Of a DNA stretch of 32,789 nucleotides, positions 10,058 to 21,780 are shown piece by piece (positions within the stretch are counted from its first letter, which is position 1; each line of letters begins with the position of its first letter). Under the pieces are notes generated by a model, which saw nothing but the letters and a program-made list of their open reading frames with translations, was not told the DNA's origin and made no database searches. Source of the DNA: an uncultured Bacteroidota bacterium (GTDB lineage Bacteria > Bacteroidota > Bacteroidia > Chitinophagales > Chitinophagaceae); assembly GCA_903881585.1 (NCBI GenBank), contig CAIRTW010000106.1, forward strand, positions 1 to 32,789, written 5' to 3'. Position numbers and translations under genes: made by a program.

Positions 10058-11071
10058 ATGGCCAGTAGTACAAATTATGACAATCTATTGGAAATAAGTA
10101 TCGACCCCAATATTAAAAAGGAATTAAATGATCAAATTCAAGAACTAAGTGATTTCATCAGAACAAAAGAAGACGAAAAATTCGCAAAAGAAACTGAGTT
10201 GGTAGAGACCGAGCAAAAATTATCCTTAGCTACGGCTGCAAAAAAACCTATCGCTTCAACATCCATCGGATTAGCCGTATCCACAAATCCTTCAATAACG
10301 GATGACGAGATTTACAATTTACAGAAGAAAATATGGCCACTCCGCGGGAATATTGATGTTCTTTCAAATCAAATAAAAATCAAAAATCAAAAATTAACTG
10401 AATTGGGAAATGTGATTAACGATTGCCTTACGTTAATTAGACATTCATCTGATTTGGCAATAAAAAAGAACAAAAACATCATAAAAATACATGGGTCATT
10501 ACGAGACGCTGATAAGGATCATTATGGTTTTGACAATGATCCTCGAATACATTATGTGATTTCTCAGGAGGATTTTGACACTTATCCAGCGAAACATGAA
10601 GCTTTTACACAATTAATGAGAATCTCCTTGCTACAGGAATCTTTTTGTTTAATTGGCTTTTCAGGAATGGATCCAAATTTTTTAGCGTGGATAGGCTGGG
10701 TTAGGGATATTATTCAAAGGAAAAAAACTCCTGATAACGAAAACAATGACGACAAAATTTATTTGATTGATGTAAGCAAAGATAATGCGCCAAACGATAA
10801 AGCCTTATTTTATAGGAATCACAGGATAGCACATATCCCAATTATGCAGGATTGCTGCATTAACTGGAAAAAGGAAAAGATTTTTTCATTCAGTTTTAGA
10901 CCATCTTCAGCACCACAGCAATCAAATAGTCCCCCGCCTCGGGCATTTAACCCCTCAATGAAAACCCTATCCGGCTGTCCGCCGCCGGACTGTCCCGCCG
11001 TGACAAGACGGCAATCAAATAAGCGGGCGTATGCCCATAAATTATTACACAAGCCCTTTTACAATGATTAG
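10058..11071 (+). CDS. Truncated SIR2-like (SIR2_2) protein with coiled-coil insert
   Basis: A SIR2-like domain of the type found in NAD-depleting anti-phage proteins. The frame begins at the conserved NYD motif (TNYDNLLE, residues 5-12). KIHGSLRD follows at 143-150, then YVISQEDFDTYP and GFSGMDPNF (200-208), all in family order. Two features are abnormal. The N-terminal Rossmann half with the glycine-rich NAD loop is missing, and an in-frame TAA lies 12 codons upstream of ATG 10058. A charged, coiled-coil-like stretch of about 125 residues separates TNYD from KIHGS, where the family usually has a short linker. The last 45 residues (from about 293) are Pro/Arg-rich and encoded by a GC-rich hairpin cluster. 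It is probably a decayed or recombined defence gene; NADase activity is doubtful. Confidence 0.6.
   Translation: MASSTNYDNLLEISIDPNIKKELNDQIQELSDFIRTKEDEKFAKETELVETEQKLSLATAAKKPIASTSIGLAVSTNPSITDDEIYNLQKKIWPLRGNIDVLSNQIKIKNQKLTELGNVINDCLTLIRHSSDLAIKKNKNIIKIHGSLRDADKDHYGFDNDPRIHYVISQEDFDTYPAKHEAFTQLMRISLLQESFCLIGFSGMDPNFLAWIGWVRDIIQRKKTPDNENNDDKIYLIDVSKDNAPNDKALFYRNHRIAHIPIMQDCCINWKKEKIFSFSFRPSSAPQQSNSPPPRAFNPSMKTLSGCPPPDCPAVTRRQSNKRAYAHKLLHKPFYND
10926..11045. repeat. GC-rich hairpin cluster at the 3' end of the SIR2-like gene
   Basis: Several short inverted repeats sit in an otherwise AT-rich gene: TCCGG...CCGGA (about 10969-10988), GCCGT...ACGGC (about 10997-11012) and GGGC-GTAT-GCCC (about 11024-11035). 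The abrupt composition change and loss of family similarity suggest that a REP-like element replaced the original 3' end. Confidence 0.4.
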
Positions 11072-19583: not shown

Positions 19584-19689
19584 AATTTGTTGTTTTTAGT
19601 TTTAAGTAGTTGATTATTAATCTGTTGTTTTCTTTATCGATATTCTGTAACGTAAAATTAAACAACATTTTTGTTCTATAATTTACATT

Positions 19690-19857
19690 ATGTTAAGTAG
19701 AATAACAATAGAAAAAGCAATTATGGTTACCCGATTCCTACTTAACAGTAAGGATATTATAGAAGCCCGAAGTTACTGGTCAGGTAATCGCAAACAGATC
19801 TATCCCCTGCTTCCGTTTTGCTGTAGCTTAATTATTCCAGTCCTAGAATACTGGTAG
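19690..19857 (+). CDS. Possible 55-aa small protein
   Basis: ATG 19690 to TAG 19857 encodes 55 residues beginning MLSRITIEKAIMVTRFLLNS and ending CCSLIIPVLEYW. The C-terminal third is hydrophobic. Support is weak: no clear promoter box or ribosome site. The first part of the frame overlaps a 10-bp inverted repeat, so the stretch could equally be regulatory DNA. Confidence 0.25.
   Translation: MLSRITIEKAIMVTRFLLNSKDIIEARSYWSGNRKQIYPLLPFCCSLIIPVLEYW
19691..19747. repeat. 10-bp inverted repeat with 37-nt spacer
   Basis: TGTTAAGTAG (19691-19700) and its exact complement CTACTTAACA (19738-19747). The geometry is close to that of the 12-bp inverted repeat at 20291-20350. Confidence 0.5.
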
Positions 19858-20132
19858 AAAAAATCATAGGGCACACCAGACATTCTAAAAAATTTCGCAC
19901 AGATCCTCAATGAAAATCACATGCAGATTCTTTCAGCGGCCATCCTGGGAGGCCCAGAGTTTGCAAAATTTTCATCAAAAATATCTGCTCAGTTTGCAGC
20001 TAGCTTTGCATTCATTCAGTTGCAAAATTTTATAAATAGTCACTCATTAACCAACCGAAAATCTCATGTTTGATTTATAACGCCGTTTTCCTGCGCTATT
20101 GATTTCACAAGAAGCAACGCCACTTTTATAGC
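19858..20132. other. AT-rich spacer, no gene seen
   Basis: No convincing ORF. The only structure noted is a repeated TTGCAAAATTTT (about 19967-19980 and 20018-20031). Confidence 0.5.
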
Positions 20133-20307
20133 TTATCCACATATCCACAGTTATCATAGTTTCCATAGCTACATGCAGCATTATAGTCTATTTTTTTGTT
20201 TGTCAACACTATAGTTTCATATAGTTGTTTTTGATTCACCCCATGTTTCTAACAGTTTACCCACAATATTTGGCACTCAACAAATCTGGCATTACATTTG
20301 TTGATAA
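20133..20307. promoter_or_regulatory. Cluster of DnaA-box-like sites in AT-rich DNA
   Basis: A perfect DnaA box, TTATCCACA (20133-20141), is followed with one base overlap by ATATCCACA (20141-20149). TTACCCACA lies at 20257-20265 and, on the other strand, TTATCAACA at 20307-20299, each one mismatch from the perfect box. Between them are imperfect repeats of ATAGTTTC-CATAG type. This could be a replication-origin-like or DnaA-controlled region. No dnaA gene or GC-skew evidence is available here. Confidence 0.35.
20269..20300 (+). promoter_or_regulatory. Consensus Bacteroidota promoter for 49-aa gene
   Basis: TTTG (20269-20272), exactly 20 nt, then TACATTTG (20293-20300): a full match to the -33/-7 consensus TTTG-N19-21-TAnnTTTG. 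It reads toward the small ORF at 20392, giving a leader of about 85 nt. Confidence 0.65.
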
Positions 20308-20350
20308 CAATTTAATAACTTATCTTAGTATAATGATTAACAAATGTAAT
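20291..20350. repeat. Perfect 12-bp inverted repeat with 36-nt spacer
   Basis: ATTACATTTGTT (20291-20302) and AACAAATGTAAT (20339-20350). Each arm contains a TACATTTG -7 box on its own strand, so the two boxes face each other. The spacer is very AT-rich. Confidence 0.6.
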
Positions 20351-20391
20351 TCTGAGTAACCCGATTGTTTAACCTTTTAAATTGCTGTTTT

Positions 20392-20541
20392 ATGATCATC
20401 GCAGCCGTAGTATTTTTCGCCACCGTACTGGTCTTCCCTAATCTGGGACTTTCTAAAAAGCCAAAGGGACACCTGGACAAACACCGTTCTTACAGTCAAT
20501 GGGAGCGCGCCCGTCACGAACACCAGCGCTACTCTCACTGA
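20392..20541 (+). CDS. 49-aa membrane microprotein
   Basis: ATG 20392 to TGA 20541. Residues 2-20 (IIAAVVFFATVLVFPNLGL) form a single transmembrane helix. The rest is strongly basic and aromatic: SKKPKGHLDKHRSYSQWERA, then RHEHQRYSH. The abrupt rise in GC content over its AT-rich surroundings, the good amphipathic design and a consensus promoter 91 bp upstream support a real gene. It has no recognised family. A GC hairpin (CCGCAC at 20583-20588, GTGCGG at 20602-20607) follows but lacks a T-run. Confidence 0.55.
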   Translation: MIIAAVVFFATVLVFPNLGLSKKPKGHLDKHRSYSQWERARHEHQRYSH

Positions 20542-20713
20542 GCTACTTGCGCCAATCCATTCCCTTATCACCACCAGGCGCTCCGCACACTGAAAACTTC
20601 CGTGCGGCTCCTTGCCCTTAATTTTACTCTGCGCATGGTATTTCGGTTATGCTCACCGGAATACATGCTCCCACCGGGGGCGAAAATGTTCTATTGAAGT
20701 ATCAATAAATCGT

Positions 20714-20745
20714 CTTGGAGCGAATCAATTTGCATACTACCTTTG
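20714..20745 (+). promoter_or_regulatory. Near-consensus promoter of putative RNA
   Basis: CTTG (20714-20717), exactly 20 nt, then TACCTTTG (20738-20745): a perfect -7 box and a -33 box with one mismatch. No credible protein gene lies downstream until 21376. Confidence 0.55.
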
Positions 20746-20876
20746 CTCCAACATTACACCTTTCCAGGCAAAGAATGCTGTGTTGCAGAGTCTTCGAGTG
20801 CAAGCCACTTAAAAATAACCGGGCTAACTACCCTGCTTTTCGCCGAAAAATCATATAGTTTTTTCTGTAAGCCAAA

Positions 20877-21013
20877 ATCAAGTTAATCACATAAATCAAA
20901 CGAATTTCGTTCAGGCAAACTTGCTCAAATGAGCAAGAATTGAGCAACTTTTCAGGCTGTTTTTACGATAAGTAATTGATAATCAATTATAAGTTGAGCA
21001 TAAAGTATTTCGG
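20877..21013. repeat. Tandem unit A with two palindromes
   Basis: Contains TTGCTCAAATGAGCAA (20921-20936; 7-bp arms), a third half-site TTGAGCAA three bases later, and TAATTGATAATCAATTA (20973-20989; perfect 8-bp arms around one base). Aligned with unit B, about three-quarters of positions match; the 27-bp palindrome block is identical. Confidence 0.7.
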
Positions 21014-21080
21014 AAAATGTGCGCAATAATATCATAAAGCCAGCTCTCGATTCTGAAAAATTAAATCTTTTTTCACCTGC

Positions 21081-21210
21081 AATCAGGTTAATCAAACGAA
21101 TCATAGTTCAGACATTCTTGCTCAAATGAGCAAGAATTGAGCAATTTTTACAGCTATTTTTAGCATAAGACATTGATAATCAATAAGAAGTTAAGCAATA
21201 AACTTTTCGG
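21081..21210. repeat. Tandem unit B with two palindromes
   Basis: The same order of elements as unit A, about 200 bp downstream: palindrome TTGCTCAAATGAGCAA at 21118-21133, half-site TTGAGCAA, then ATTGATAATCAAT at 21172-21184. Both copies end in TTTTCGG/ATTTCGG. Preservation of the palindromes while spacer bases differ suggests selection on them. Confidence 0.7.
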
Positions 21211-21216
21211 GTAAAA

Positions 21217-21244
21217 GCAGGCAATATCGTTCCTGCGGTTTTTT
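21217..21244 (+). terminator. Intrinsic terminator of the putative RNA
   Basis: GCAGG (21217-21221) pairs with CCTGC (21232-21236), followed by GG and six T residues. Confidence 0.55.
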
Positions 21245-21375
21245 GCCGCCTTAAAAACATAATAAATGTAATTACGCCTCTGCGTCTTGGCGAGAAACTT
21301 TTTTTACTGTTCTCCGTTAGAGATAACCTTTGTGTTCTACCAAACAATTAATACATTTACAAAAAAGCATTACAG

Positions 21376-21780
21376 ATGAAGCGAACCTTATTTTTCGCGC
21401 TCTTTGCGCTCCCCTTTCTTATTATCAGTTCTTATACCAGCCGGGCGCAGTGTGCCGTATATTATTGCCCGCAAATGGGGGCAGTGGGTTACTCCTATAG
21501 CGATGATGAGACCGGCCACAACATGGAAACAATAAAAAAGAATGCGCTGAAGCAATGCCAGGATCTGGGCGGCAAAAGTTGCACCCTGCTGTATGCCACT
21601 CAAAAAGTGGGTTGGGGCGGTTTTATTAGAGGGAAGGATGCTAGCGGGAATGCGTTATTTTTTGCCGTTGGTCACCAACTCTCAGATGCATTTTCAAAGA
21701 GCGAGCTTAGGCGGAAGTACCTGGCTGCAGATGGGATAGAACTGAATGACGTGTTGATGGTAACGTGGAAAGCGGAGTGA
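21376..21780 (+). CDS. Secreted DUF4189-like protein
   Basis: 134 residues with a signal peptide (MKRTLFFALFALPFLIISSY, TSRAQ; cleavage near residue 25). The mature part shows a DUF4189-like pattern: an aromatic GAVGYSYSDDETGHNMETIK stretch, then KNALKQCQDLGGKSCTLL with two cysteines in the 'A...C...gg..C' arrangement, then a GWGGF turn. Two further cysteines sit at the mature N-terminus (QCAVYYCP). The domain's function is unknown. The protein is probably periplasmic or surface-exposed and disulfide-bonded. It lies just downstream of the putative RNA, with its own spacer of 130 bp. Confidence 0.65.
   Translation: MKRTLFFALFALPFLIISSYTSRAQCAVYYCPQMGAVGYSYSDDETGHNMETIKKNALKQCQDLGGKSCTLLYATQKVGWGGFIRGKDASGNALFFAVGHQLSDAFSKSELRRKYLAADGIELNDVLMVTWKAE

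Follow-up and report, generated by a model that had tools for sequence, protein, structure and literature searches.

Paired repeat units on an uncultured Chitinophagaceae contig belong to a dispersed family of probable docking sites for small-terminase-like proteins

The stretch of DNA analysed here (hereafter the window) comprises 32,789 nucleotides of contig CAIRTW010000106.1 (assembly GCA_903881585.1), from an uncultured Bacteroidota bacterium of the family Chitinophagaceae, and contains between positions 20714 and 21244 two similar repeat units, which raise the question of whether they act as RNA or as DNA, and with which partner. A sequence-only reading had proposed this segment as a putative new RNA locus, complete with promoter and terminator. 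The units are members of a dispersed intergenic family on the chromosomes of one genus, with a recurrent geometry, arm sequences in species-specific dialects and a tie to orphan genes whose products are homologous to the small terminase subunit (TerS) of phages. Probably (probability about 0.7), they serve as chromosomal sites at which oligomeric relatives of phage TerS dock.

The two direct copies lie 197 bp apart from start to start and are 81% identical over 105 nt, which bears out the tandem arrangement and the shared identical block originally claimed (CTTGCTCAAATGAGCAAGAATTGAGCAA, at 20920-20947 and 21117-21144). Unit 1 (20920-21026, plus strand) runs from an inverted left half-site to a right terminal arm, and unit 2 (21117-21224, plus strand) repeats this order; both match the family model R1 introduced below (G000:C106:20930-21015, E 3.3e-15, and G000:C106:21127-21209, E 1.9e-15, respectively), and both belong to the training set of that model. 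At the left edge of unit 1 stands an inverted arm, TTGCTCA (20921-20927, minus strand), followed by two plus-strand arms TGAGCAA (20930-20936 and 20941-20947), the second 11 bp past the first and 35 bp ahead of the core start. The palindromic core TTGATAATCAA (20976-20986), identified by sequence and a shuffle test, overlaps TAAGTAATTGATA (20969-20981, minus strand), whose reverse complement fits WATCAANNNNTTR, presumably the consensus of integration host factor (IHF). To the right, family geometry places an arm TGAGCAT (20995-21001, plus strand) at +19 from the core start, and the unit ends in a terminal arm TGCGCAA (21020-21026, plus strand). The corresponding parts of unit 2 are TTGCTCA (21118-21124, minus strand), TGAGCAA (21127-21133 and 21138-21144, plus strand, the latter again 35 bp ahead of the core start), the IHF-consensus site TAAGACATTGATA (21166-21178, minus strand), the core TTGATAATCAA (21173-21183), the right arm TAAGCAA at +19 (21192-21198, plus strand) and, from alignment with genome G003, a terminal arm-like CAGGCAA (21218-21224, plus strand).

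The second palindrome ascribed to each unit is indeed present (ATTGATAATCAAT, 20975-20987 and 21172-21184). The spaced pattern TGAGCAA-N(26-30)-TTGANNNTCAA, composed after the family had been seen, occurs twice in the window and in none of 100 shuffles. The letters of the proposed palindrome with a third half-site are also found, but across the family the left part is a direct TGNGCAA array, and the inverted left-edge copy occurs in some members. Since the syntenic locus of G003 has a single unit, the pair in the window reflects either a tandem duplication or the loss of one unit in G003. Arms, core and spacing recur from copy to copy, the syntenic unit of G003 included, whereas the spacers vary, which supports the suspected selection on protein binding.

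BLAST searches with the unit returned nine matches in its own genome (G000), the two of the window included, and 11 of the 99 genomes searched, G000 among them, matched the unit DNA at E ≤ 0.001. The exact pattern TGAGCAA-N47-TGAGCAA was counted 11 times in G000 (once without a core), 17 times in G016 and 12 times in G024, and its reversed control in none of 60 genomes; several isolated matches in other genomes, which are without a core, look like chance occurrences. With the core added, the pattern recovered 19 contig stretches of the genome collection, all in four metagenome-assembled genomes titled Bacteroidetes or Flavipsychrobacter (the genus name is taken from assembly titles), and a 22-base exact pattern had no match in viral contigs. 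The proposed search of related genomes thus revealed a family: model R1, a sequence-only model built from 43 copies mostly of one dialect, gave matches at E ≤ 0.01 in 31 of the 35 genomes of the genus, with 2 to at least 102 sites in each, and none in the other four, G018 and G023 among them. These counts are lower bounds because the training copies were mostly of one dialect and at most 125 first-look candidates were scored per genome. The arm sequence varies with the genome, and sites also occur in tandem in the same orientation, about 90-600 bp apart. The copies of the window (L001, L002, L169) were excluded from the site lists.

In a sample of 91 sites, gathered with tools trained on that same geometry, the distance from the start of the nearest left TGNGCAA arm to the core is 25, 35, 36 or 46 bp in 86 of 90 cases, and the nearest right arm lies at +19 from the core start in 79 of the 87 sites having such an arm. 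The left arms (n = 224) are phased at 10.75 bp (R 0.92), successive arms being mostly 11 bp apart. After removal of the 40 exact-pattern sites, and with the core set by TTGATTATCAA alone, the left spacing was found in 46 of 50 sites and the right arm in 39 of 47. The cores of the remaining 51 sites, placed without the TAA bases, agree with all nine positions of TAANNNNTTGATW, which we take to be the IHF consensus, in 26 cases and with at least eight in 45, while flanking sequence reaches eight or more at a rate of 0.0009 per position. Most of the G015 and G020 copies fetched, and the one copy of G028, are about 10 bp shorter with the phase kept, and 11 bp extra on the left in a G012 copy and on the right in a G020 copy likewise preserve it. 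The arrangement appears to be that of a DNA-protein site, and the 11-bp phasing of the arms, which suits duplex DNA, argues for a reading as DNA. An exact DnaA box (TTATCCACA) occurs in the left spacer of 10 of the 91 sites, against about 0.2 expected from the rate in the loci. An iteron-type replication origin, which arms, IHF core and DnaA box would fit, was considered and rejected, as most copies have no such box.

A structured RNA locus, the original reading of this segment, is very improbable. As had been stated, no known RNA family fits: Rfam gave no match for the window at the gathering score, nor for positions 20600-21400 at E ≤ 1. RNAalifold found zero consensus pairs and no consensus hairpin over the 43 copies, base pairs of the core palindrome are disrupted in up to 12 of these copies, and the covariation score was equalled in 41 of 500 shuffles; five cells of the palindrome were altered on both sides, compared with a shuffled mean of 3.1 (87 of 500 shuffles as high), so that the suggested covariance analysis of homologs disclosed no clear covariation. 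A scan for terminators gave none, with a mean of 0.5 in shuffles, and thus did not confirm the one proposed. The promoter-like element, CTTG (20714-20717) followed after 20 bp by TACCTTTG (20738-20745; whole element 20714-20745, plus strand), does lie upstream of both units, a point in favor of the RNA reading, and is partly conserved at the syntenic G003 locus, but it has no fixed counterpart beside other copies, where no promoter box was found in a fixed position; the idea of a fixed promoter adjoining the site was dropped. The scan for sigma-70 type promoters showed one weak site only, on the opposite strand. In favor of RNA, the 501-nt stretch of the window folds below 100 shuffles (z -4.5), a low energy that the inverted repeats there would themselves give.

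The candidate partner is a family of orphan phage TerS-like helix-turn-helix (HTH) proteins, first met as paralogues upstream of a few sites and matched in 34 of the 35 genomes of the genus, with 1-14 matches listed for each. Around the 63 TerS-like genes of the genus whose elements were examined, model R1 gave 32 matches at E ≤ 0.01, 31 of which lie at the 3' end of the gene and on its strand, from 177 bp before to 447 bp after that end (the range of -260 to +500 was chosen after the distances had been seen); three of the 31 (L209-L211) stem from the adjacency that led to the protein family, and L211 is in the R1 training set. Locus L213, the same place as L254, was excluded from counts on 64 sources, and 13 matches with E between 0.01 and 1 were left uncounted. 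Among the orphan genes with at least 300 bp of sequence past the stop codon, 31 of 57 have such an R1 site. The 26 comparison loci (414 kb in all; 20 around large terminase (TerL) genes of the genus and 6 around TerS-like genes of another genus) yielded no R1 match at E ≤ 0.01 and one at 0.016. Subfamilies with other recognition helices are accompanied by other 11-bp-spaced repeats next to an IHF-like core. Picked out visually and from plain lists of repeats, with no model of chance applied, these are GTGATATTTTT three times for the NRRTIMMW subfamily (G000:C139), ACGTACA twice for SRVSLNFW (G007:C371) and TTGAGAG twice for NRRTIYEW (G015:C29), together with GATACGTTTGY twice and a degenerate core at G003:C38, and GTGGGAA flanking the core on both sides at G012:C14.

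The homology of the orphans to TerS holds over the HTH and the region after it. Four tested orphans matched phrog_4151 over about 140 aa (3e-13 to 1e-19), and Terminase_5 was found in 35 of 37 members of the family. Relatives outside the genus are rare, turning up in 10 of the 247 genomes sampled from the rest of the order. Five of them immediately precede a large terminase, one of these terminases being phrog_38 and the other four 33-50% identical to that one. Pfam, also tried for these large-terminase relatives, gave no family, and PHROGs identified them. The TerS-TerL order is also that of Bacteroides phage p00, whose TerL is 44% identical to the one compared. In a tree of 67 proteins, a fully supported split separates the 37 orphans, three G206 proteins and one long-branched phage protein from other TerS. 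Among nine G009 paralogues of one subfamily (of 14 matches in that genome), the first 147 codons have a mean synonymous divergence (dS) of 0.42, a nonsynonymous divergence (dN) of 0.008 and a dN/dS of 0.02, compared with 0.43 for the rest, and this conserved part is thus kept almost constant among the paralogues.

Three further observations concern these genes. In G009 (L239-L246), the 3' part of the coding sequence of the orphan genes contains arm repeats, which thereby encode a basic tail that varies between paralogues. In G033, a genome with a phage-type capsid, no R1 site and no TerL match at threshold, an orphan TerS-like gene (L235) directly precedes an Hsp90-type gene like the one that follows a solitary site in G015 and G003. 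Finally, G206, from another genus, has multi-copy orphan TerS-like genes (L301, L302) followed by GGAAGTTT repeats 10 bp apart, one of them close to an IHF-like site; the arrangement may be a parallel to that of the present genus.

From these patterns we infer that the orphan proteins bind the arms and IHF the core. The left array of 7-bp arms would lie on one face of the helix, in 11-bp steps; the core would serve as a bend site for a protein of the IHF/HU family, with further right-side arms at a fixed distance from it; and a TerS-like oligomer would hold both sets of arms of a wrapped or folded loop, as a terminase complex does on a cos or pac site. Several points weigh against such docking. 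No R1 match at E ≤ 0.01 was found past the stop codon of 26 of the 57 orphan genes, some of which have other arms by eye and several nothing recognised. There is no strict pairing of arm with helix: the same TGNGCAA arms occur with several helix variants, such as SRRSLSYW and SRSTLHNW. The own assembly has 6-7 TerS-like matches, among which none was found beside a TGAGCAA/35-bp element, and the window itself has no orphan gene; where an element could be read, the arms are TGTGCAA or GTGATATTTTT, and the cognate protein of the window units is therefore absent from the draft assembly, lost, or a different one. Of the 91 sampled sites, 86 lack TerS-like sequence in the upstream stretch of up to 1.5 kb, for which reason solitary sites were also rejected as remnants of decayed TerS modules, and R1 found no site in G018 and G023, although both have TerS-like genes. 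A point in favor of docking is that the numbers of sites and genes per genome are correlated (Spearman 0.69, n = 35; 0.55, n = 26 at ≥90% completeness), although these counts include lower bounds or fragments. A further point against it is that, in the excerpted text of PMC4737164, the HTH domain of SF6 TerS is described as binding pac repeats with little sequence specificity.

As to the purpose of such docking, regulation or chromosome architecture upstream of genes is ranked ahead of packaging-start sites and ahead of selfish spread. That the orphan TerS-like proteins are transcription factors or architectural proteins for the gene after the right arm is a tentative reading, somewhat short of even odds. 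Among the 91 sites, 22 overlap an open reading frame (ORF) of at least 80 aa and two an ORF of at least 150 aa. On the right side, the site points to the start of 45 of the 57 qualifying neighbours (≥200 aa, <700 bp), whose transcription runs away from it (p 1.3e-5; 44 of 56, p 2e-5, with tandem sites counted once). Where both neighbours were called (n = 25), 15 are tandem co-directional, none tandem antisense, six divergent and four convergent (14, 0, 6 and 4 with tandem sites counted once). These figures come from simple ORF gene calls and from sampled sites with a long enough called neighbour, which itself tempers the regulatory reading. Five genes each lie downstream of a site in two species at comparable distances, namely those for Hsp90 (G015, G003), an arginase-family protein (G024, G029), a YCF48-like protein (G000, G020), a DUF4123 protein (G015, G000) and, in the window, a co-directional 134-aa protein without Pfam match (21376-21780, plus strand), whose gene also follows the syntenic unit of G003. 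Because some of the site pairs at shared genes differ in arm sequence or spacing, sites seem to stay in place while the dialect changes; independent insertion at one gene could also account for such pairs. Against regulation speak the range of distances to the gene start (85-615 bp), three further shared genes at which the distance differs between species by 0.4, 1.1 or 1.4 kb, the lack of a fixed promoter position and the absence of a common theme among the downstream genes examined. The translated right-side neighbours resemble ordinary chromosomal genes (six proteins checked with Pfam, two from the window).

It is unlikely that the sites are packaging starts, at which an inherited Mu-like cluster (TerL, portal, gp36), directed by orphan TerS to pac-like sites, would package the chromosome. 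A TerL of this type occurs in 31 of the 35 genomes, with one match in 21 and two or three in ten, some of the multiple matches being pieces of one gene, and in 20 loci compared it is accompanied by TerS (17), the gp36 connector (16), portal (17) and a phrog_6911 protein (16), the packaging genes sitting among host-like genes common to subsets of genomes. For TerL and portal, the eight pairs whose dS is finite (above 1 in several) give dN/dS values of 0.04-0.09, which points to purifying selection on the TerL-portal-gp36 cluster, and the arms with their IHF bend resemble lambda cosB, which has R sequences with an IHF site. On the other hand, the p00 (hankyphage-type) capsid protein and its PHROG were found only in G033 among the 35 genomes, other capsid types not having been searched; the cluster comes with a separate TerS, and its loci hold no R1 site at E ≤ 0.01; the orphans form a lineage apart from the TerL-adjacent TerS; G018 and G023 have TerL but no R1 site; and this reading does not predict the orientation of sites towards genes. 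With the p00-type capsid in one genome and no R1 site in the TerL loci, a role as gene transfer agent (GTA) is only a possible one. A protease PHROG also matched 11 of 14 control genomes and was hence uninformative. The fuller proposal, a domesticated Mu-like packaging machine in Flavipsychrobacter steered by interchangeable TerS adaptors, each with its own start-site dialect, the window units being two such starts, is decidedly unlikely. It is likewise doubtful that gene and site spread together as a selfish module with solitary sites as by-products. The G009 copies do share at least about 1 kb in eight pairwise comparisons, a stretch that begins some 150 bp or more ahead of the start codon and reaches close to the stop, the place of the arms, and the tandem sites in one orientation fit such spread; but only 5 of the 91 sites have TerS-like sequence in the up to 1.5 kb upstream, some sites persist at the same gene between species, and no recombinase domain appeared among the Pfam matches obtained. 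Least probable of all are attachment sites of a tyrosine integrase, with arm-type repeats and a core: the layout resembles attP, and a gene with a Phage_int_SAM_5 domain stands about 0.75 kb away from site L004, but there is no spacer between the core halves, and this candidate was dropped once TerS-like genes recurred beside the sites, no genome-wide search for integrases having been made.

Docking sites for TerS-like proteins would share features with several known systems. As in lambda cosB and the pac sites of SPP1 and SF6, repeats stand near the gene of a TerS HTH protein in DNA that is bent (here by prediction), but here there are many copies per chromosome, the arms are phased at 11 bp and differ in dialect between species, the site stands on the 3' instead of the 5' side of the gene, and no phage genome was seen around, though no systematic screen for phage genes was made. 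In the excerpted text of PMC4737164, TerS is a ring of HTH domains and the SPP1 pac site contains direct repeats and spans the start of the small terminase gene; models of TerS are treated in the part of PMC9611059 consulted. Dispersed short intergenic elements with an associated chromosomal protein gene are also known as repetitive extragenic palindromic (REP) sequences and bacterial interspersed mosaic elements (BIMEs) with their REP-associated tyrosine transposases (RAYTs), as outlined in the excerpt of PMC2817692. In the present family the recurrent partner is instead an HTH TerS-like protein and not an HUH transposase (Y1 genes were not searched for), and the units are direct-repeat arrays around a bend, not hairpins, none being found in the consensus of the 43 copies. 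Some BIMEs bind IHF. Conserved phage packaging genes under apparent purifying selection are shared with GTAs of the RcGTA type, but the orphans keep their HTH, the sites are discrete, and a p00-type capsid was located in 1 of 35 genomes. The RcGTA TerS is described without a specific DNA-binding domain, and no discrete GTA start sites are known, according to the excerpts of PMC7947584 and PMC6854486. Phage p00 (a hankyphage), with the gene order TerS-TerL and then portal, has a TerS that matches phrog_4151 at 4.8e-48, the same family that the four orphans matched; the orphans differ from it in being longer, multi-copy and not beside TerL, and the one searched is about 24% identical to it over half its length. 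Among the matches listed, titles and abstract openings of the open-access literature contained no account of such a system.

Orphan packaging-recognition proteins found throughout the genus, many of them encoded beside their own DNA address, offer a natural experiment in how an HTH and its site change together in specificity. If the sites start packaging, they would contradict the view that GTAs package at random, the cargo being addressed; if they regulate, a regulatory system would have been built from a phage part. Phased arms around an IHF-like bend would also supply a sequence-specific substrate on which to study the reading of DNA by TerS oligomers.

Other features of the window lie mostly around the units. 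A AATCAGGTTAATCAAACGAATCATAGTTCAGACA-type repeat stands directly left of both (20874-20919 and 21070-21116), and similar stretches are found left of some copies in other genomes. Positions 21242-21305 hold another dispersed intergenic repeat, of the CTCTGCGTCTTGGCGAGAAAC type, which is matched on several contigs both of this genome and of others. At 19671-19698, TTGTTCTATAATTTACATTATGTTAAGT resembles an XerCD dif site, judged against what we take to be the E. coli dif sequence, and because a 30-base stretch ending in it is identical in loci of several genomes of the genus, in some of them close to a shared downstream gene, the replication terminus may lie within the window. The non-coding interval 20140-20330, with TTATCCACA- and TTGTTAAT-like boxes, looks like an origin at first sight, yet is close to the dif-like site; its boxes sit in a region (20131-20539) that is 78-80% identical in G003 and G020 and in which a possible ORF for a 49-aa membrane protein (20393-20542) is also placed. 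Farther upstream, at 10058-11071, a 337-aa ORF encodes a SIR2-like domain (PF13289, 4.4e-11).
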